Assembly: GCA_030587435.1 (NCBI GenBank)
Contig: JAUQZC010000096.1
Coordinates: 1-29,553 of the forward strand
Direction of reading: 5' to 3'
From: Candidatus Baldrarchaeota archaeon
GTDB lineage: Archaea; Asgardarchaeota; Baldrarchaeia; Baldrarchaeales; DXJG01
DNA length: 29,553 nucleotides
The notes under the pieces are model-generated. The model did no database searches. It was not told the DNA's origin and saw only the letters and a list, made by a program, of their open reading frames with translations. A program made the position numbers and the translations under genes. Positions 14,251 through 26,178 of the stretch are shown here, one piece after another. Every line of letters starts with the position of its first letter. Position 1 is the first letter of the stretch.

Positions 14251-14323
14251 TATTATTTCCCCTCCTTTAAGTAATTAAAAGAATATGTTTGAAAACTTTG
14301 CAACATTCCAAGGTGAAGTTGAT

Positions 14324-14737
14324 ATGACAAAAAGATTAGCTGTTATAGACACGGAGAGATGTGTAGGCTGTCAAATGTGTATGTTTGCTTGTGCTCGACG
14401 TCACAGCGTAGGAGGGCTTGGAAAAAGCGCTATACATGTTAAATCAGCTGGAGGAGTGGAAAGAGGATTTGTAGTTGTAGTTTGTAGAGCATGTCCAGAT
14501 CCACCTTGCGCAAAGGTATGTCCAACTCAAGCAATAGTTCCCAGGAAAAATGGTGGAGTCCTTGTTAAACTCGACAAATGCATTGGCTGTAAACTATGTG
14601 TGGAAGTTTGCTTAATAGGTGCAGTAATATGGGATGAAGAAACAAACAAGCCTAGAATCTGCACATATTGCGGCTACTGTGCCAATTATTGTCCACATGG
14701 AGTATTAAAATTCCAAGAAATAGAGGAGGCAACCTAA
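14324..14737 (+). CDS. Polyferredoxin subunit of aldehyde:ferredoxin oxidoreductase (four 4Fe-4S sites)
   Basis: The 137-aa protein carries sixteen cysteines in four groups: 13/16/19/23, 54/57/62/66, 86/89/92/96 and 113/116/119/123, enough for four [4Fe-4S] clusters as in the small subunits of molybdo- and tungsto-enzymes (DmsB-like, AorA of Aromatoleum, WOR-S of Pyrococcus furiosus WOR5). It should carry electrons from AOR to a soluble ferredoxin or another partner in the cytoplasm. The start is ATG 14324, with AGGTGA seven bases before it; ATG 14285 would add a poorly conserved tail and has no such site. The stop TAA directly abuts the AOR start, so the two subunits are co-translated. No FAD subunit (AorC) follows. 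Confidence 0.9.
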   Translation: MTKRLAVIDTERCVGCQMCMFACARRHSVGGLGKSAIHVKSAGGVERGFVVVVCRACPDPPCAKVCPTQAIVPRKNGGVLVKLDKCIGCKLCVEVCLIGAVIWDEETNKPRICTYCGYCANYCPHGVLKFQEIEEAT

Positions 14738-16492
14738 ATGCCCGATAAATTTCTGCAAAACGTACTATATATCGATCTTACTAGGAGACGTTTCTGGGTT
14801 GAAAACAGAAAAGACCTTTTCGAAAAATACCTAGGTGGAGTTGGAGTAGCCACTCAACTTCTACTTGAAGAATGCCCTAAAAATGTTGATCCATTTGACC
14901 CTGAAAACCCTATAATTTTTGCAGTAGGCCCATTAACAGCTGTTTACCCTCTTGCTTCAAAAACTGTAGCCATGTTCAAATCTCCACATACAGGTAACCT
15001 AGGTGAGAGTCACGCTGGCGGTAGAAGTGCTGTAGCTATAAGGTCTGCTGGTTATGGTGCAATTGTAATTAAAGGATCAAGTGAAACACCGGTTTACCTA
15101 GCAATACATGAAAGCAAAGTGTACTTTAGAGACGCATCTATCCTCTGGGGAATGTGGAGCACATTTACCGTTGGTAGAATCATACGGGAAAACGAACCTG
15201 GAGCAGGTATAAGAACAATTATGCGTATTGGCAGAGCTGGAGAAAGACTTGTAACCTATGCATCAGTAATAACAGAAACATATAGACACTTTGGTAGATT
15301 AGGATTAGGGGCTGTTTTCGGAAGCAAAAAACTAAAAGCGATTCTAGTTTCTGGGAAACATTCAATACCTGTAGCCGATAAAAAAATGTATAGGGAACTA
15401 TATGATGAGATTTATGATACTGCTGTTAAATCTCCAATTATGAGAAAATATCACGACTTAGGAACGCCTGCAAATGTTTTACCACTTAATGAACTTGGAG
15501 CATTACCAACAAAAAACCTTAAGCAATCAAAATTCGAGCATGCCGAAAAAATTTCAGGCGAATTCCTCGCAGAACACTATCTTGGACGAAGAATTGCATG
15601 CTCCAATTGCCCAGTAGCTTGTATACACCTTGCAACTCTGAGAGAACCTTACATCGACGAACCCTACTTTTACAAGACAACATGGGTTTCCTACGATTAT
15701 GAACCTCTATTTGCTCTGGGCTCCATGCTTGGAGGCTTCAATGTACCAGGTTTACTTAAACTTCTAGATGAAATTGATATCCAAGGTTTAGATGCGATGT
15801 CTACAGGTGTCACATTGGCATGGGCAACAGAAGCTATGGAAAAAGGGATTATAACAAAAAACGAGACGTTAGGATTAGAGTTAAAATGGGGAGACTATGA
15901 AACATATAGGAAAGCCGTAATAAACATTGTTAAACAACCAAACGAGTTCTATCAAGCATTGGCTAGAGGAGCAGAGTATGCTGCATCAAAATATGGTGGA
16001 AAAGAATTTGCCTTGACTTTTGGTGGAAACGAAATGCCTGGCTACCATACAGGTCCAGCTGCCTATGTAGGATTTCTAACCGGCGCAAGACATAGCCATC
16101 TTGATTCTGCAGGATACAGTTATGACCAAAAAATGTTCAAGGCACAGGAAACACCAACTCCGGAGAAAATCGCAGAACAATTAGTTAAAGAAGAGTCTTG
16201 GAGACAAATACTTTCAAGCCTAGTCATATGCTTCTTTGCAAGAAACATCTATAAACCTGAAATCGCTGTTAAAGCCCTCAAAACCATGGGCTACGATTTT
16301 ACGGTTGAAGACTTAAATAAGCTAGGACGAGAGATATTGAAGAAAAAATATGAATTCAAGTTTAGAGAGGGCTTTGATCCAAGTAAACTAAGAATACCTA
16401 AAAGAATACTGGAAACCCCGACACCACATGGAAAATTAACTGAGGAAGAAATAAGGAAGGCAGTAAACCTATACTTCGAGAAACTAAAATAA
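14738..16492 (+). CDS. aor: Aldehyde:ferredoxin oxidoreductase, tungsten-type catalytic subunit
   Basis: The 584-aa enzyme oxidises aldehydes to carboxylic acids, or reduces acids with low-potential ferredoxin, using a tungsten-bispyranopterin cofactor and one [4Fe-4S] cluster. The cluster ligands are visible: Cys288, Cys291, Cys295 (ACSNCPVAC) and Cys498 (SSLVICFF), almost the same positions as 288/291/295/494 in Pyrococcus furiosus AOR. The N-terminal domain (YLGGVGVATQLL, SHAGGRSAVAIRSAGYGAIVIKG) and the TGARHSHLDSAGYSYD segment are family hallmarks. Preceded without gap by the polyferredoxin gene, with AGAGGAGG as ribosome-binding site, it resembles the two-subunit enzymes (AorAB, WOR5). 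The substrate cannot be told from sequence. It ends five bases before the end of a gene on the other strand. Confidence 0.93.
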   Translation: MPDKFLQNVLYIDLTRRRFWVENRKDLFEKYLGGVGVATQLLLEECPKNVDPFDPENPIIFAVGPLTAVYPLASKTVAMFKSPHTGNLGESHAGGRSAVAIRSAGYGAIVIKGSSETPVYLAIHESKVYFRDASILWGMWSTFTVGRIIRENEPGAGIRTIMRIGRAGERLVTYASVITETYRHFGRLGLGAVFGSKKLKAILVSGKHSIPVADKKMYRELYDEIYDTAVKSPIMRKYHDLGTPANVLPLNELGALPTKNLKQSKFEHAEKISGEFLAEHYLGRRIACSNCPVACIHLATLREPYIDEPYFYKTTWVSYDYEPLFALGSMLGGFNVPGLLKLLDEIDIQGLDAMSTGVTLAWATEAMEKGIITKNETLGLELKWGDYETYRKAVINIVKQPNEFYQALARGAEYAASKYGGKEFALTFGGNEMPGYHTGPAAYVGFLTGARHSHLDSAGYSYDQKMFKAQETPTPEKIAEQLVKEESWRQILSSLVICFFARNIYKPEIAVKALKTMGYDFTVEDLNKLGREILKKKYEFKFREGFDPSKLRIPKRILETPTPHGKLTEEEIRKAVNLYFEKLK

Positions 16493-16496
16493 GGTG

Positions 16497-17141
16497 TTAA
16501 ATGGTAACTAAGCCAAGCAACAACCATATCCAAACTATTCCAAACGTTAACAGAAGCAGTGAAATCAAGTCTAATATTAAACCTGCTTTCAACATTTTTT
16601 TAATTTTACTAAGCCTGTGCTGTAAGCTAAGGTGCTTGGAGGAGTTCCAACTGGTAACGCGAAGTCTAGGGTCTAAAAACAATATTGTAAAAGCTTCTTT
16701 CGACCTCACAAGAGGTCTATACCTAAAAACATAGACATCATCTTCAATCCTCGTAGGTCTTATGTCAACGCTGAAATTCTGGCCTTTTTTAATCGTAATT
16801 ACAAGTAAACTTGAAGCAATTTTAATAGCCGAATTGCTATGCCAAGTCAACTTAACTTTAAATTCTATGGTTGAAGTAGGGGATAACGCATAGTTTTCTT
16901 TAGCGTAAACTGTAACATTAAACTCCCTAAAGCTGAAAACATACTCTTCCCATTCAACAGATTCGCTATCTGATAAATTAAAGGTAAAAGAAACCTGTTC
17001 AGTTTGAGAGTAATCAGTAGGGTTAGGAAAGGTGAGTTTAGCTGTATAGGTTCCGAGCTGAGCGTTAGAAGGAGCAAACATATATGCGATGATTGCGACT
17101 ATAAACGATAAAGTTATTAAAACAATTTTTGAACGTTTCAA
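16497..17141 (-). CDS. Secreted or surface protein with signal peptide and C-terminal membrane anchor
   Basis: About 214 residues. The N-terminus (MKRSKIVLITLSFIVAIIAYMF followed by APSNAQ) is a typical signal peptide with an A-x-A-like end; a beta-rich extracellular part of about 150 residues follows, with several N-x-S/T sequons (NLS, NVT, NFS, NSS) that could be N-glycosylated; a hydrophobic helix (GLILDLISLLLLTFGIVWIWLLLGLV) ends the chain, with lysines before it. It should face the outside, anchored at the C-terminus. I chose TTG 17141, with GGTGA eight bases before it; GTG 17153 overlaps that site. It converges with aor with only a four-base gap. The family is unknown. Confidence 0.65.
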   Translation of the reverse strand: MKRSKIVLITLSFIVAIIAYMFAPSNAQLGTYTAKLTFPNPTDYSQTEQVSFTFNLSDSESVEWEEYVFSFREFNVTVYAKENYALSPTSTIEFKVKLTWHSNSAIKIASSLLVITIKKGQNFSVDIRPTRIEDDVYVFRYRPLVRSKEAFTILFLDPRLRVTSWNSSKHLSLQHRLSKIKKMLKAGLILDLISLLLLTFGIVWIWLLLGLVTI

Positions 17142-17334
17142 TGCTCGTTTCACCTATTCAAATTTAGCAAAATACGAGGGCTGCAAATTCTTTTTAATTT
17201 TCGACTTAAACAAATAAACTACACATAAAACTGAATTAACAAAACACAAAGCCACCAGTAAATCAAAGCTTAATAATGTAAAAACCAAACATTAAATACA
17301 ACTAAATTACGTTCAAAACTACAGTTGTTAAAGC

Positions 17335-18387
17335 ATGGAGGTATTTTCGCTGAATAATGAGGTACCAAAGTTTCTAACTGAACTTGAAAACTGCAAGCTA
17401 TGTGAATGGCAATGTGGTGTAAACAGAATTACCGGAGAACTTGGAGTATGTAAAATGGGTATTCCACAGGTTGCAAGCTGCCAACTTCATCCAGCGCCGC
17501 CTCAAAGCTACACAATTTTCATGGCAGGATGCAACTTTAAATGCTTAAACTGTCAAAACTGGACCATAGCACACTACCCAGACACCAACACCGTAATAAG
17601 AGGCTACGTGGATCCAAAAGAACTTGCAAAAGAATCCCTTGCCGCGATAAATTCTCCCATGGGGCAGTTTATAGGTGCAGATCGAATATTTTTCAGCGGA
17701 GGAGAACCTACAATACATCTACCCTACATAGAGAAAATAGTGGAAGAAGCCAGAAAAATAGGCCCAGAAACAAAAGTAAACTTTGACACTAACGGTTTCT
17801 TAACGATGAACTCTTTGAAACGAGTATTAAAATTCACAACCTCCATAACCTTTGACATAAAAGCTTACAATGACGATGTTCACAGAGCATTAACAGGAGC
17901 TCTATCGGAACCAGTTTTAAGAAACGCTGAATATATCGCTAAACATGCTAGGGACAAACTATGGGAGTATAGAATCCTAGTAGTACCTGGAATAGTAGAT
18001 GTAGAGGAGGTACAGGCTGTCTGTGAATTTATAGCGTCCATAGATCCTACGTTACCAGTTTGTTTCCTCGTTTTTAGACCAAATTTTGTGCTGGATCAAT
18101 GCATGGGTGCAACATGGAAACTAATGGATAAAGTAGTTGAAGTAGCACGTAAAGCTGGATTAATAAAAGTAGATTGGGCAGGTAGGCCAAATATACCTGG
18201 ATATGAACTAAAAAACTTCGAAAGGCTAAAAGCTAAAATTTCAAAGTACTATGAGCATGAATGGGCTTTAAAAGCAGCAGTCTACGCTTTAAAAGCTGGC
18301 TGTAAAGCACATCCAAGAAACTGCGGAACATGCAACGTTAAACTTCATTGCCCGCTCAAAAAGTATACTCCAGCGAGAACAACTTAA
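17335..18387 (+). CDS. Radical SAM protein, PflA-like, with extra C-terminal four-cysteine loop
   Basis: The 350-aa protein has the radical SAM motif GCNFKCLNC (CxxxCxxC, Cys66/70/73), the SAM-binding GGEP at 122-125 and DTNG at 151-154, all as in pyruvate-formate-lyase-activating-enzyme-like members. Before it lie Cys20, 23, 27 and 39 (ENCKLCEWQCGVNR...GVCKMG), as in the AmmeMemoRadiSam-type relatives. At the C-terminus Cys323, 330, 333 and 339 follow CX6CX2CX5C, the spacing of the endonuclease III cluster loop, and could hold an auxiliary cluster. No glycyl radical enzyme is in view, so the substrate is unknown; nearness to aor is suggestive only. The ATG at 17335 is directly followed by GGAGGT, which may mean a later non-ATG start (CTG 17350) or a short-leader message. 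Confidence 0.85.
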   Translation: MEVFSLNNEVPKFLTELENCKLCEWQCGVNRITGELGVCKMGIPQVASCQLHPAPPQSYTIFMAGCNFKCLNCQNWTIAHYPDTNTVIRGYVDPKELAKESLAAINSPMGQFIGADRIFFSGGEPTIHLPYIEKIVEEARKIGPETKVNFDTNGFLTMNSLKRVLKFTTSITFDIKAYNDDVHRALTGALSEPVLRNAEYIAKHARDKLWEYRILVVPGIVDVEEVQAVCEFIASIDPTLPVCFLVFRPNFVLDQCMGATWKLMDKVVEVARKAGLIKVDWAGRPNIPGYELKNFERLKAKISKYYEHEWALKAAVYALKAGCKAHPRNCGTCNVKLHCPLKKYTPARTT

Positions 18388-20271: not shown

Positions 20272-21030
20272 ATGATAGATGAATTTATTTTTAAAATCTT
20301 AAGAAAAGTAGGGAAAGATAGAGCAGTTCGGTTTACTGATTTGCTAAATGTGGTAAGTAACCCTAGAACCTTAAGTAGAAAACTTGAATTTCTAATTTCA
20401 AAGGGTCTTGTTAAGATTGAGGGTCGCCTATATATGTTGACTGAAAAGGGTGAGATAGCTTTGAAACTTCTTGAAAAACTTACCGCTATAGTTGAAGACC
20501 CAGAGTTTCACGTAGTAAACATTGAGAAAATTCCCCATGGAGTTTATAGTAAAATTCTAGAAAGATATTGTAAGATTTTATATGAACATTTTGGAACTAA
20601 GCTTCTAGGTATAGCTCTTTTTGGATCAATAGCTAGGGGAGATTGGAATAAAAATAGCGATATAGATTTACTGGTAATTGTTGAGGAGTGGGATAAAAAA
20701 CCCGTGTGGGAAAGAATTAGAGAACTTCTGAAGCTAAAAAAGAAGCTTAGAGAAACCGAGGAATATAAATGGGCTCTGAGAAAAGGATATTTCCCAATAA
20801 TACAACACTATCCATTAAGTCGTAAAGAAGCCTTAGAATTTCACAGAATTTACATAGATATGTGTCTAGATGGAATTATCCTCTATGAGCGAGATAAACT
20901 TCTCACAAAAATCATAGAGAAAGTACGCCAAAAACTCTTGCTTCACGGAGCAAAAAGAATAACCATCCCAGGAAAAGGTTACTATTGGATTTTAGCCGAC
21001 CTAAAAGCTGGGGAGGTCGTCGAGTTTTGA
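20272..21030 (+). CDS. HTH-nucleotidyltransferase fusion (MNT-type antitoxin candidate)
   Basis: Residues 1-70 form a winged helix (RFTDLLNVVSNPRTLSRKLEFLISKGLVK); residues 100-140 carry the minimal nucleotidyltransferase signature FGSIARGDWNKNSDIDLLVI (Gly118-Ser119, Asp130, Asp132). The C-terminus has AKRITIPGKGYYWILADLKAGE, common in the thermophile members. A HEPN gene follows with its start overlapping this stop. In studied MNT-HEPN pairs MNT AMPylates and silences the HEPN RNase. The expected third catalytic acid on the later strand (near YFPIIQHYP) is not obvious, so activity is open. The fused winged helix could make it the regulator of its own operon. The start ATG has no strong ribosome-binding site and may be leaderless. 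Confidence 0.85.
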   Translation: MIDEFIFKILRKVGKDRAVRFTDLLNVVSNPRTLSRKLEFLISKGLVKIEGRLYMLTEKGEIALKLLEKLTAIVEDPEFHVVNIEKIPHGVYSKILERYCKILYEHFGTKLLGIALFGSIARGDWNKNSDIDLLVIVEEWDKKPVWERIRELLKLKKKLRETEEYKWALRKGYFPIIQHYPLSRKEALEFHRIYIDMCLDGIILYERDKLLTKIIEKVRQKLLLHGAKRITIPGKGYYWILADLKAGEVVEF

Positions 21031-21464
21031 AAACCATTGAAATAGCTGTAGCTGGAATAAAAAGAGCTGGAAGATGGCTTCAAGGAGCAAAAAGAGCCTT
21101 AGAAGACAAAAGATGGGATGACGTAGTCTACTGTTCCCAAATGGCAGTCGAGCAAGCTACGAAATCCATCCTAATTTCACTAGCCATAGATTTTCCCAGA
21201 GAACACGACATCAGCGAAGTTTTCGCTCAACTAGCCCAGAGAAAAGATCTACCAAAATGGTTTAGGGACCAAGTTGACTCAATAAGCAACACTATAGCTG
21301 AGTTAGCAGAACTAAGAGGACTAGCAGGCTACGGCTTCGAAAAAGGTATAAATGCAGAATACTTCAAAGATTATGCCCCAGAAGCATATAGCAAAGCTGA
21401 AAAAACATACAAATCATGTATAAATCTACTTAAAGAATTATTTAAAGTAAATATTACAACGTAA
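21027..21464 (+). CDS. HEPN domain protein, partner of the MNT protein
   Basis: This 145-aa all-helical protein of the HEPN (PF05168-like) family starts at TTG 21027, overlapping the TGA of the upstream gene, with GGGGAGGT nine bases before it. Typical segments are RAGRWLQGAKRALEDKRWDDVVYCSQMAVEQATKSILI and REHDISEVF. The RNase motif Rx4-6H of toxic HEPNs is not present where expected: AELRGLAGYGFE has the arginine (Arg97) but no histidine. It may therefore be a non-RNase HEPN that binds nucleotides or RNA in complex with its partner. Classed as the second half of an MNT-HEPN module with high confidence; whether it is a toxin is uncertain. Confidence 0.85.
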   Translation: MKTIEIAVAGIKRAGRWLQGAKRALEDKRWDDVVYCSQMAVEQATKSILISLAIDFPREHDISEVFAQLAQRKDLPKWFRDQVDSISNTIAELAELRGLAGYGFEKGINAEYFKDYAPEAYSKAEKTYKSCINLLKELFKVNITT

Positions 21465-21688: not shown

Positions 21689-22534
21689 CTATTTGGCGAT
21701 TAACGACCTTAAAACTCTTAGATTTTCTTTATATTCTCTTTCTCCTCCGGGAGTTTCAAGTATCATGGGAAGATTTTCAAATCGTTTATCATTTACAATA
21801 ATTCTGAAAGCGTCAAGACCTATAAGACCCTTGCCTATGTGTTCGTGGCGATCAACTCTACTTCCAAGTTCTTTCTTAGAATCATTTAAATGCAAAACCT
21901 TAAGCTTCTCTAAACCAACTATTTCATCAAATTGGTCAAAGGTTTCTTCGTAAGCTTCACGCGTCCTTATATCATATCCGGCTGCAAAAACATGCGCCGT
22001 ATCAAAGCACGCGCCAACCCGCTTCTTTTCATCGACCAAATCAATAATCTCCGCAATATGCTCAAACCTATAACCAACATTAGTACCTTGACCAGCAGTC
22101 GTCTCCACAACAAACATAAGCCTATAGTTTTCGGTTCTCGCGATAATTTCATTTAAACTTTCAGCAATTTTCTTCAAAGCATATTCTTCCCCATAATTTC
22201 TATGCGCTCCTGGATGAAACACTAAGTAAGGTATTCCAAGAGCTTCTGCCCTAGCGGCTTCGTCGAGAAAGGCGTCAAAAGACTTCTTGTACTGAGTTTC
22301 ATCGGGTGAACCTAAATTAATTAAATAAGAATCATGAGCAACAGCTACCTTTATATTATAAACGTTAAGATTTTCTTTGAAACTTTCAATTTCATCTTCC
22401 GATAAGGGACGAGCCTTCCACTGCCTCTGGTTTTTAGTAAAGATCTGTATGGAATCGCAGCCAATCTCCCGGCCACGTTTAGGTGCTTTATCCACACCAC
22501 CAGAAATAGATACATGTGCTCCAAGAATACCCAT
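21689..22534 (-). CDS. nfo: Endonuclease IV (AP endonuclease)
   Basis: Endonuclease IV cuts DNA 5' of abasic sites in base excision repair. All nine metal ligands of the E. coli enzyme can be matched: His67, His107, Glu144, Asp178, His181, His215, Asp228, His230 and Glu260, in HDSYLINLG, FHPGAH, VVETTAGQG, CFDTAHVFAAGYD, LHLNDSK, DRHEHIGKG and LETPGG. Length of 281 aa is normal. It is divergent from the helicase gene with a 174-base shared promoter region, and endonuclease III lies beyond that helicase. Confidence 0.96.
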   Translation of the reverse strand: MGILGAHVSISGGVDKAPKRGREIGCDSIQIFTKNQRQWKARPLSEDEIESFKENLNVYNIKVAVAHDSYLINLGSPDETQYKKSFDAFLDEAARAEALGIPYLVFHPGAHRNYGEEYALKKIAESLNEIIARTENYRLMFVVETTAGQGTNVGYRFEHIAEIIDLVDEKKRVGACFDTAHVFAAGYDIRTREAYEETFDQFDEIVGLEKLKVLHLNDSKKELGSRVDRHEHIGKGLIGLDAFRIIVNDKRFENLPMILETPGGEREYKENLRVLRSLIAK

Positions 22535-22708
22535 TAAAATCCCCAGCTAGAAATGCAATCGTTCCACATATTTAAATATAGTTTCAATTTCACTGATGCA
22601 TATACGGGAATTTAATGCACTAATTTCTTAATGGAAAAGCTCAGGTAAAATAGGGCATTCACAAAATTTAATAATGTACTGGATTGTTCCTTTTAAAGGC
22701 AGATTAAA

Positions 22709-25291
22709 ATGTTTGAGAATACAACTATAGTATTTCTAAGGTATAAGGAGAAGAGTATGGAATTTATGGTGGGTGTTTTTGTTAGTGGTAAGAAGGCAAA
22801 GTATAGTAGACCTGATTATAGAGGTAGGCTTCAAATATACTTTAAAAACGATATGTTTCTTAGGCCACGTAGACTTTTGCTTGAAATTAAGGGAAGATTA
22901 GAAGCCTATCCACCAGAAGAATTCATAAAAATGTTAAGATCATCAAATAAGGTTCTCATATCTGAAAAAATTCAAGAAAATGTAAAGAACATGCTTTTAG
23001 AAATGTTTAAGGCATATAGTATTCGGGATTCTAAGATACGAGTTGCTAAGTTTTGCCCATTTTGTGAAATAGAGGGAAAAGTTACAGTTCTTGAAACTAA
23101 ATCCGAAATTTTTAAAGTTCAGGAAAGATATGTCTGTTTCAAATGTGCAAAGGATGAACTGTTGAGAGAACTTAAATTTAGGGGAATACGCGTTTCAGAT
23201 ATGATTTCTGAAAGACTTTTCACATTGCTTAGAAAAGTTAGAAGTGTAGATAAACTTCTCGGACATCTAGTGACCGGAATGAATATTTACGTGAATCCTG
23301 AACTCACACTTTTCGACAAAAAAGAAGCTAAACCCGAAATCACGGAACGATTAACGGTTGAAGACCTTGAAATACCAGATGCTCTGAAAAATGTTCTAAA
23401 GGAAAATGGGATACATGAGCTATTACCGATACAGGTTAAAGCGTTGAAAAGCGGATTACTGAAAGGTGAAAGTATTCTTGTTGTCTCTGCAACTTCTACA
23501 GGTAAAACGCTCATAGGCGAACTCCCAGGTGTTCTCGCTGCTTTAAATGGAAAGAAAATGCTGTATCTATGTAATCTTGTAGCTCTTGCAAACCAAAAAT
23601 ACGAAACATTCAAAGCAAGGTATTCAAAACTTGGATTAAAAGTTGCAATAAGAGTTGGAATGAGTAAAATAGATGTAGGCGAAGAAGAACTAGTAATAGT
23701 TGATGAAGATGTTAAAAACGCAAACATTATCGTTGGAACCTACGAGGGACTAGACTACCTAATAAGATCAAGTCAACACAGCGACCTAGGAGACATAGGC
23801 GTAGTTATAATAGATGAAATTCAAAGTCTCAGCGACGAGGAAAGAGGACCAGAACTAGATGGACTTATCGCAAGAATTAGATCCCTATTTCCAAAATGTC
23901 AAATAATCGCCTTATCAGCAAGTGTTGGAAACCCTGAAGAACTAGCCAGAAATCTCAACCTAAAACTTGTAAGATACTCTGAGCGCCCTGTACCACTTGA
24001 ACGACACCTAGTCATCTGCCTATCCGAAAAAGACAAGCTCAAAGCAATAGAAAACGTAATAAAACAAGAATGGAGAACGATAAGCAGCCACGGATTCCGA
24101 GGACAAACAATAATATTTACAAACTCTAGGCGAAGAGCTCATCAGATCAGCAACTGGCTAAACAAAAGAGGCCTAAAAGTAGCCACCTATCATGCAGGTC
24201 TCACCTATCCTAGGAGAAAAATGATAGAACTAGGTTTTGAAAACGGATTTTACCAAGCAGTCGTCACAACTTATGCTCTTGGCGCAGGTTTCGATGCTCC
24301 CGCAAGTATGGTGGTCTTCGAATCTCTTGCTCAAGGCATTAATTTCATTACTAAGAGTATGTTTGAAAATATGGCTGGAAGAGCAGGACGCTTAGGAAAA
24401 CATGATAGAGGACGTGTAGTCATACTAGTTGAACCTGGAAAGAAATATAGAGGAGCTGTTGAGGAAACAGAAGACTCAGTAGCAATAAAACTACTTGAAG
24501 AGGAATTAGAGCCCGTTGAGTTTTCCTACGACATTGAAGGATGCGCTGATCAAGTTCTCGCTTACATATCAGCAAAAGGAGAAGTATTTCTTGATGATTT
24601 AAAACAATACTATAGTATGTTGCTAGGAGCATCTGAAAACCTGGATCATGTCCTTGAAACTTTGCTAAAAGATGGAATGATAACGATGAACAACGGTAAA
24701 GTAGCAGTGACCCCTTTGGGAAGAGCTACTGCTACGTCATTTTATAAGTTGTCTGAAGTGAAAATAGCGAAAAAATACCTCAAGGACGATATGAATGTTC
24801 TTGATGTAGCAATACTCTTAGAACCGTTTACTCAAATCTATGTTTCTACGAAGGTGCAAGGTGAACTTGAAAAAGCATTTAACGTGCGTTTTTCATCAAA
24901 GCTTTTCTCGGATGCTATCCTCGACGTAATGGATGTCTCTACGAAGAAGGAGATGCCTAAACTACCTAAATGGCTCCTTGAGTTATTTGCAAAATGGTCA
25001 CTTGAATTCTTTAACTGCAAATGTAAAGAAGCTCCGTTCTGCGAGCACGGAATAGTAAACCTCTGCAAAAAAATAGTAAAACTAAGACTAGAAGAGAAAT
25101 TAAAGCTAAGAGAAATATCTTCACGCCTACAAAAAGAATATGAACTATATGTTTATCCAGGAGACCTTTTTAGATGGTTGGACTCGCTAATACATAAACT
25201 CAGAGGAATAAGTAGACTAGCAAAAGTCTGGAACCTCAAAGAAGCAGCGGAAACCGCTGAACAAATTGTAAAACGCATTGAAAGACCGTAA
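22709..25291 (+). CDS. Ski2-like superfamily 2 helicase, archaeal MJ1401-type
   Basis: An 860-aa SF2 helicase. The N-terminal 200 residues form an extra domain with a zinc-ribbon-like set CPFC (116/119) and CFKC (143/146). The helicase core has the Q-motif region LLPIQVKAL, Walker A variant SATSTGKT (260-267), DEIQ (369-372), SAS (403-405), FTNSRRRAH, ATYHAGL, TTYALGAGFD and MAGRAGR (555-561). A Ski2-type winged helix and helical region follow. The C-terminus carries FFNCKCKEAPFCEHG with four nearby cysteines. This layout suits the archaeal helicases related to M. jannaschii MJ1401, separate from Hel308. It probably unwinds nucleic acid; the repair neighbours suggest DNA, but RNA cannot be excluded. 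Confidence 0.88.
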   Translation: MFENTTIVFLRYKEKSMEFMVGVFVSGKKAKYSRPDYRGRLQIYFKNDMFLRPRRLLLEIKGRLEAYPPEEFIKMLRSSNKVLISEKIQENVKNMLLEMFKAYSIRDSKIRVAKFCPFCEIEGKVTVLETKSEIFKVQERYVCFKCAKDELLRELKFRGIRVSDMISERLFTLLRKVRSVDKLLGHLVTGMNIYVNPELTLFDKKEAKPEITERLTVEDLEIPDALKNVLKENGIHELLPIQVKALKSGLLKGESILVVSATSTGKTLIGELPGVLAALNGKKMLYLCNLVALANQKYETFKARYSKLGLKVAIRVGMSKIDVGEEELVIVDEDVKNANIIVGTYEGLDYLIRSSQHSDLGDIGVVIIDEIQSLSDEERGPELDGLIARIRSLFPKCQIIALSASVGNPEELARNLNLKLVRYSERPVPLERHLVICLSEKDKLKAIENVIKQEWRTISSHGFRGQTIIFTNSRRRAHQISNWLNKRGLKVATYHAGLTYPRRKMIELGFENGFYQAVVTTYALGAGFDAPASMVVFESLAQGINFITKSMFENMAGRAGRLGKHDRGRVVILVEPGKKYRGAVEETEDSVAIKLLEEELEPVEFSYDIEGCADQVLAYISAKGEVFLDDLKQYYSMLLGASENLDHVLETLLKDGMITMNNGKVAVTPLGRATATSFYKLSEVKIAKKYLKDDMNVLDVAILLEPFTQIYVSTKVQGELEKAFNVRFSSKLFSDAILDVMDVSTKKEMPKLPKWLLELFAKWSLEFFNCKCKEAPFCEHGIVNLCKKIVKLRLEEKLKLREISSRLQKEYELYVYPGDLFRWLDSLIHKLRGISRLAKVWNLKEAAETAEQIVKRIERP

Positions 25292-25429
25292 CAATCTAAT
25301 TGCGAAAATCAAAATAATGACGGCTAAAATAACAAAAGAGACTGCAAAAGTTATCGAACAATTCTATAAGTTATGCTAAAAATACTTAAAGTAACATAAC
25401 CACGTTGTTGTGTACTATCATCGTAAACA

Positions 25430-25445
25430 CGTGCAAAATTGCACG
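25430..25445. promoter_or_regulatory. CGTGCAA-AA-TTGCACG inverted repeat upstream of nth
   Basis: Perfect 7-bp arms around two bases, about 90 bases upstream of the endonuclease III start. Its GC content exceeds the neighbourhood. It may be an operator for nth or a 3' structure of the helicase transcript (140 bases after its stop). Confidence 0.4.
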
Positions 25446-25533
25446 AAAGAGTCTAAAGGTGCTTTGTAACGATTAAAAGCAATTCGTATATCAACATCAT
25501 TAAAATTTAGAGTTAAAGGCTTAGGTGATTTAT

Positions 25534-26178
25534 TTGATTGATAACTCCAACATATCAGAGGTTTTAAGTATCGTTAGAAAAGCTGTTTCAAAATTTGAAA
25601 GGCCAGCTGTATCTGTTGTTGCAAATAGAGATCCTTTCAAGGTTCTTATCGCCACAATTCTAAGTGCAAGAACGAAAGACGAGGTGACAATTAAAGCTTC
25701 TCGAAAACTGTTTAGTGTAGCTGACAACCCTCAAGATATGATAAAACTTGGAGAAAAGAAAATCTCCGAACTAATTTACCCCGTGGGATTTTACAGAAAT
25801 AAGGCAAAAAACATTGTTCAAATCTGTAAAGAACTAGTAGAAAAATATGGTGGCAAAGTTCCGGACACAATGGAGGAACTACTAAAGCTTAAGGGTATAG
25901 GGAGAAAAACAGCAAACCTTGTCCTAATATTAGGATACGATAAAATGGGTATCTGCGTTGACACCCATGTGCATCGAATAACGAACAGATGGGGCTACGT
26001 AAAAACAAGAACCCCGGAGGAAACAGAAATGGAACTACGAAAAAAGCTACCAAAGAAACACTGGAAAGAAATAAACGAACTACTAGTATCATTCGGACAA
26101 CACATATGTAAACCGGTAAAACCACAATGCAACACGTGTCCCGTGCAAAAACTATGTCCTAGAATCGGAGTAAGATAG
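25534..26178 (+). CDS. nth: Endonuclease III
   Basis: Endonuclease III removes oxidised pyrimidines and cuts the strand by beta-elimination. The helix-hairpin-helix with catalytic lysine ([16 protein letters not shown]), the aspartate segment [14 protein letters not shown], and the cluster loop [17 protein letters not shown] (CX6CX2CX5C) are all present, and about 214 aa is the normal length. The start is TTG 25534, with GGTGAT (25524-25529) four bases before it; GTG 25525 lies inside that site. The 54-aa gene that follows is probably co-transcribed. Confidence 0.95.

Follow-up and report, generated by a model that had tools for sequence, protein, structure and literature searches.

Auxiliary clusters of radical S-adenosylmethionine (SAM) enzymes may serve to reduce the SAM cluster, to take up an electron or to coordinate the substrate (PMC11138216), and the same source gives the [4Fe-4S] loop of endonuclease III the spacing CX6CX2CX5C. 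The same spacing closes a radical SAM protein encoded by the stretch of DNA under study, namely the 29,553 nucleotides of contig JAUQZC010000096.1 of an archaeon of Candidatus Baldrarchaeota, an Asgard group, hereafter referred to as the window. The gene, located at 17335 to 18387 on the forward strand and beginning with ATG, encodes a PflA-like protein of 350 amino acids with three cysteine motifs, for which homologues were found. On sequence grounds, it encodes a member of an uncharacterised radical SAM subfamily defined by a conserved four-cysteine tail; no description of the family was found in searches of the open-licence PubMed Central literature, as judged by titles and the openings of abstracts.

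The protein, its three cysteine motifs and their conservation

The open reading frame and the cysteine positions and spacings put forward in the original prediction were confirmed in the sequence, save that the twelve motif cysteines counted there proved to be eleven, out of 15 in the whole protein. All of the features lie on the forward strand. The N-terminal motif (Cys20/23/27/39, CX2CX3CX11C; 17392 to 17451), recognised by its conservation and its spacing in paralogues, is followed by the radical SAM core (approximately residues 42 to 281; 17458 to 18177), predicted to adopt the fold of the pyruvate formate lyase (PFL)-activating enzyme, and by the catalytic cluster motif (Cys66/70/73, CX3CX2C; 17530 to 17553) within it. 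The protein belongs to the radical SAM superfamily, its match to PF04055 reaching 77.8 bits (E 1.4e-21) against a gathering score of 29.5. The C-terminal extension (residues 293 to 350; 18211 to 18384) consists of helices and then the tail in the full-length structure model, with a predicted local distance difference test (pLDDT) score of approximately 90 to 97; the tail modelled in isolation was poor (pLDDT 67.7). The tail motif proper (18301 to 18351) comprises Cys323, Cys330, Cys333, and Cys339, with His326 and Arg328 lying within it.

Alignment with homologues showed the C-terminal cysteines to be conserved beyond what chance would give. The best 120 of 1031 matches from a protein search gave, together with the query, 121 close sequences, and these were merged with the best 80 of 90 loci from a scan of species genomes (48 to 97% identical, the protein of locus L031 being 97% identical to that of the window) into 196 unique members at a score cut of 300 bits, conservation being counted in each column over the rows having a residue there. 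Cysteine was present at position 323 in 192/192 rows, at 330 in 193/193, at 333 in 192/192 and at 339 in 193/193; at 20, 23, and 27 in 194/194 each and at 39 in 195/195; and at all three catalytic positions in 196/196. The strict tail motif was carried by 120 of the 121 close sequences including the query, the sole miss (P0005) being a fragment of 280 residues. The rows departing from the full cysteine set were five fragments (P0005, P0106, L035, L094, and L056) and L109, which has other tail spacings, while a further locus split over two frames (L039) was left out by the 300-bit cut and retains the motif in its tail piece. The tail motif was absent from all 24 radical SAM paralogues with lower scores, which came from genomes drawn as relatives. 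In a quick tree, which comprised 74 members and eight other proteins and omitted the members' tail columns, the family fell on one side of a branch with an SH-aLRT support (approximate likelihood-ratio test) of 97, at which long branches meet. A search with residues 293 to 350 alone returned five candidates, of which only the near-identical P0002 matched. The hosts include Asgard and other archaea, Thermodesulfobacteriota, Armatimonadota, and other bacteria. The proposal of a distinct subfamily with an additional tail site is supported, as is, from the conservation of all three motifs, that of up to three metal sites.

The four-cysteine site has also been rearranged naturally. A search seeded with L109 added 109 further proteins, including a Theionarchaea-type subclade (two members being so named), in which the tail spacing was CX6CX2CX5C in 61, CX7CX2CX5C in 15, and other in 33. 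All 27 proteins P0122 to P0148, which form a subclade with L109, fall into the last class, mostly with six to 15 residues between the first two cysteines followed by C-x-C-x2-C, still amounting to four cysteines. Among the 230 proteins, R-x-C-x(1,2)-C lies within the last 75 residues of 227, and the four-cysteine tail pattern was seen in all except P0005 and P0224, both cut (the latter stopping before the tail), and P0014, whose four-cysteine motif is present farther from its C-terminal end.

The N-terminal spacing recurs, by eye, in the second open reading frame of L111 and in L112, L113, and L114, which we take to be PflX-like (COG1313) proteins. These share the CX2CX3CX11C motif with a GVNR-type sequence and have a radical SAM motif of CX3CX2C or CX4CX2C, whereas their C-terminal half differs and, again by eye, has no tail motif. 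Compared with the PDB, the N-terminal motif matched only leukotriene receptors, at E 0.83 or worse, and with Pfam it gave only weak, scattered matches; its metal may be zinc or an iron-sulfur cluster.

Similarities of the tail and its likely ligands

The cluster loop of hydrogenases is held by one histidine and three cysteines, and by sequence the tail resembles this loop more than the DNA-repair loop of endonuclease III. In a Pfam scan, PF10588, the NuoG-type 4Fe-4S region, matched 64 of the 121 close sequences (best E 6.8e-5) and 22 of 36 tails, while PF10576, the endonuclease III loop, matched none of the 121 at E 10, HMMER filters dropping weak matches. A profile of the 36 tails found only two distinct sequences in the PDB at E up to 10, both hydrogenase subunits: 7p5h, the alpha subunit of an Fe-hydrogenase, at E 0.0017, and 8a6t, an electron-bifurcating HydA1, at E 0.76. 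With a profile of 192 tails, the loops of 7p5h and 8a6t scored 27.7 and 19.2 bits, values reached by none of 1000 cysteine-keeping shuffles, against 6.6 bits for the endonuclease III loop of the window, equalled by 284 of 1000; as the hydrogenase loops had been picked as best matches, these shuffle counts are illustrative, and a fair test is given by the PDB E-value and by the outcome of the Pfam scan. The likeness to HydA and the NuoG region covers HX3CX2CX5C and neighbouring residues, whereas the family differs in its additional conserved Cys323, in a histidine that is not invariant, and in that the query has no hydrogenase or NuoG domain among its Pfam matches at E 0.01.

The original prediction had likened the tail to the loop of the endonuclease III encoded in the same window. 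The loop is indeed present, at the C-terminal end of that protein from residue 195, and its CX6CX2CX5C is identical to that of the tail; only the start of its open reading frame required correction, from 25534 to a GTG at 25525 (25525 to 26178). The likeness nevertheless ends at the cysteines, the spacing varies within the family itself, and kinship was rejected on the missing PF10576 matches and the shuffle-level score. That the tail descended from, or acts as, an endonuclease III-type loop touching nucleic acid is therefore scarcely credible. It is also improbable that the tail forms a genuine His-Cys3 cluster of the kind seen in NuoG and HydA, in which His326, Cys330, Cys333, and Cys339 would be the ligands and Cys323 would be left available for catalysis or some other task. 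Such a cluster would fit the HX3CX2CX5C of the window protein, the HydA match, and the presence of His326 in 157 of 193 rows; yet this histidine, expected as the invariant fourth ligand in a PF10588-type region, is absent from 35 of 192 members with the full motif, changes state at least 10 times on the quick tree (in which 27 of 79 inner branches are weak), and is missing by eye from the hydrogenase position in the L109-like subclade; Cys323, by comparison, is retained in the family. Since Cys323 is constant while His326 comes and goes, the ligands suggested by the alignment are likely the four cysteines 323, 330, 333, and 339.

A more serious contender, though still one of limited probability, is a structural zinc site, in which the tail would be a Cys4 knuckle without redox function and the enzyme would carry one iron-sulfur cluster and two structural zincs. 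Varying spacings, such as those of the tail, are common among zinc knuckles, and weak zinc-finger matches were recorded to PF22995 (4/121 close sequences and 1/36 tails) and PF21957 (1/121 and 1/36). Set against these, the commonest weak profile match is the 4Fe-4S region PF10588, hydrogenase subunits account for every PDB match up to E 10, and many hosts belong to lineages known as anaerobes, judging from their names.

Proposed function and the question of the substrate

The analysis leans, without great assurance, towards a radical SAM subfamily with a PFL-activase core, the tail cysteines of which would bind a [4Fe-4S] electron relay and the substrate of which is, family-wide, probably not a classical glycyl radical enzyme. 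The SAM cluster would generate a 5'-deoxyadenosyl radical to abstract hydrogen from the substrate, and Cys323, Cys330, Cys333, and Cys339 would bind a [4Fe-4S] cluster relaying electrons after the manner of the similar HydA loop, either supplying the SAM cluster from a ferredoxin-like donor or recovering them from the product radical.

Several points weigh against this reading. The query itself scores only 9.6 bits (whole) or 17 bits (fragment) against PF10588, the cut-off of which is 27; the HydA match spans a short stretch of approximately 20 residues, and HydA had already been chosen as the best match when the shuffles were run. The relay role is drawn by analogy, conserved cysteines by themselves cannot tell an iron-sulfur cluster from zinc, and His326, being so widely kept, may contribute to the cluster site. 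No general operon partner naming a substrate emerged from the 80 loci surveyed, annotation having covered a minority of the other neighbour clusters. Furthermore, the nearest relatives of the window host (G100 and G101) both have NrdD, and G101 also has a PFL-like enzyme.

The last point bears on the unlikely alternative that the protein activates a glycyl radical enzyme in the conventional way and, as other activases do, carries extra clusters. Its core is similar to PflA (3cb8/3c8f/8fo0), from which it differs in its additional N- and C-terminal Cys4 motifs (parts barely tested in the VIA comparison), activase models do match, and JGI labels many homologues as pyruvate formate lyase activating enzyme. 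The activase scores nonetheless fall far below the cut-offs, at 78 bits against 231.75 for TIGR02493 (PFL-activating enzyme). PFL-like enzymes (PF02901) occur in 20 of 50 host genomes and NrdD (PF13597) in 18, while 16 have neither, PF01228 not having been searched for and many genomes being incomplete; six of the 16 (G108, G118, G124, G128, G136, and G139) have records titled chromosome. In view of the low profile scores and the hosts lacking such enzymes, the database name is not borne out, and an activase is disfavoured family-wide, the NrdD of its relatives being the reservation for this particular host. Kinship with the AmmeMemoRadiSam radical SAM enzyme (TIGR04337) is seen in the related core and in the first open reading frame of L111, assigned to it by location and sequence, which also has an N-terminal Cys4 motif (CX2CX3CX9C); the query scores 71.4 bits with that model, below its cut-off of 220. 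As members of TIGR04337 above the cut-off live alongside the family in 49 of the 50 host genomes, however, the family does not replace them; Memo is likewise found in 49 of 50.

Upstream in the window, at 14285 to 16492, a gene for a ferredoxin-like 4Fe-4S protein immediately precedes one for an aldehyde ferredoxin oxidoreductase (AOR). The original prediction had suggested a search for linkage to aor genes. The idea that the protein is a maturase of this adjacent AOR draws on the recurrence of the arrangement, in which aor lies upstream in the same orientation and is separated from the family gene by one on the opposite strand, in L031 and L035 (which share 97% identity with the window), and on the occurrence of the AOR family in 43 of 50 host genomes, a count with no matched control. 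It is nevertheless very improbable. A survey of the 80 loci, including flanking sequence of up to 8 kb, found aor near the family gene in only six, in four of them on the opposite strand and in other places, and aor was not found in L032 (85% identical), although the in-between gene is kept there. Moreover, seven of the 50 genomes, some incomplete, gave no AOR hit, and TIGR04317, the model for the maturase of tungsten cofactor oxidoreductases, gave a score of 31.5 bits where its cut-off is 380. Linkage to aor genes was accordingly rejected on its rarity, its scattered positions and strands, and the failure to find it in L032.

Neighbouring genes and wider meaning

Two other radical SAM genes recur beside the family. 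A second PflA-like gene (approximately 345 residues) adjoins it in five of 80 loci (L056, L061, L080, L087, and L088), and a MoaA-like gene (approximately 272 residues) stands in tandem in another five, downstream in L077, L096, L104, and L105 and upstream in L107; four of these five tandem genes were scanned against models and all fell below the cut-offs. Compared with 20 control genomes that gave no strong family match, the PflA-like type was present in 26 of 50 hosts and four of the controls, and the MoaA-like type in 27 of 50 hosts and nine of the controls, the controls all being from the phylum of the window without matching of lineage. Since both types track the family poorly, no pathway is claimed. 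Six loci, L051 among them, have a Memo-like gene adjoining the family gene but oppositely oriented, followed by a gene that is RtcA-like by eye; the Memo-like copy in L051 is AmmeMemoRadiSam protein B.

Elsewhere in the window, the 218-residue frame on the reverse strand at 16497 to 17153 represents, with an internal stretch missing, a gene for a 595-residue membrane protein (a transporter by eye), which is full-length in L031 and L032, approximately 1.1 kb of L031 being absent from the window. Overlapping nucleotidyltransferase (NTP_transf_2 and HTH_45) and HEPN genes at 20272 to 21464 resemble a MntA/HepT toxin-antitoxin pair, with a score below the MntA cut-off. A run of repair genes at 21689 to 26178 encodes deoxyribonuclease IV, a Hel308-like helicase with a DUF5814 tail, and endonuclease III.

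A further and more tentative possibility is that this widespread subfamily gained, at the C terminus, an electron-entry cluster of the hydrogenase/complex I type in which the conserved cysteine replaces the histidine ligand or stands beside it; its radical chemistry would then be wired directly to the ferredoxin or bifurcation electron pool, the N-terminal site would supply a third metal centre, and a new reaction would be catalysed. The auxiliary clusters of radical SAM enzymes determine which chemistry these enzymes can do, and the conserved four-cysteine tail provides the marker of a testable subfamily spanning archaea and bacteria.
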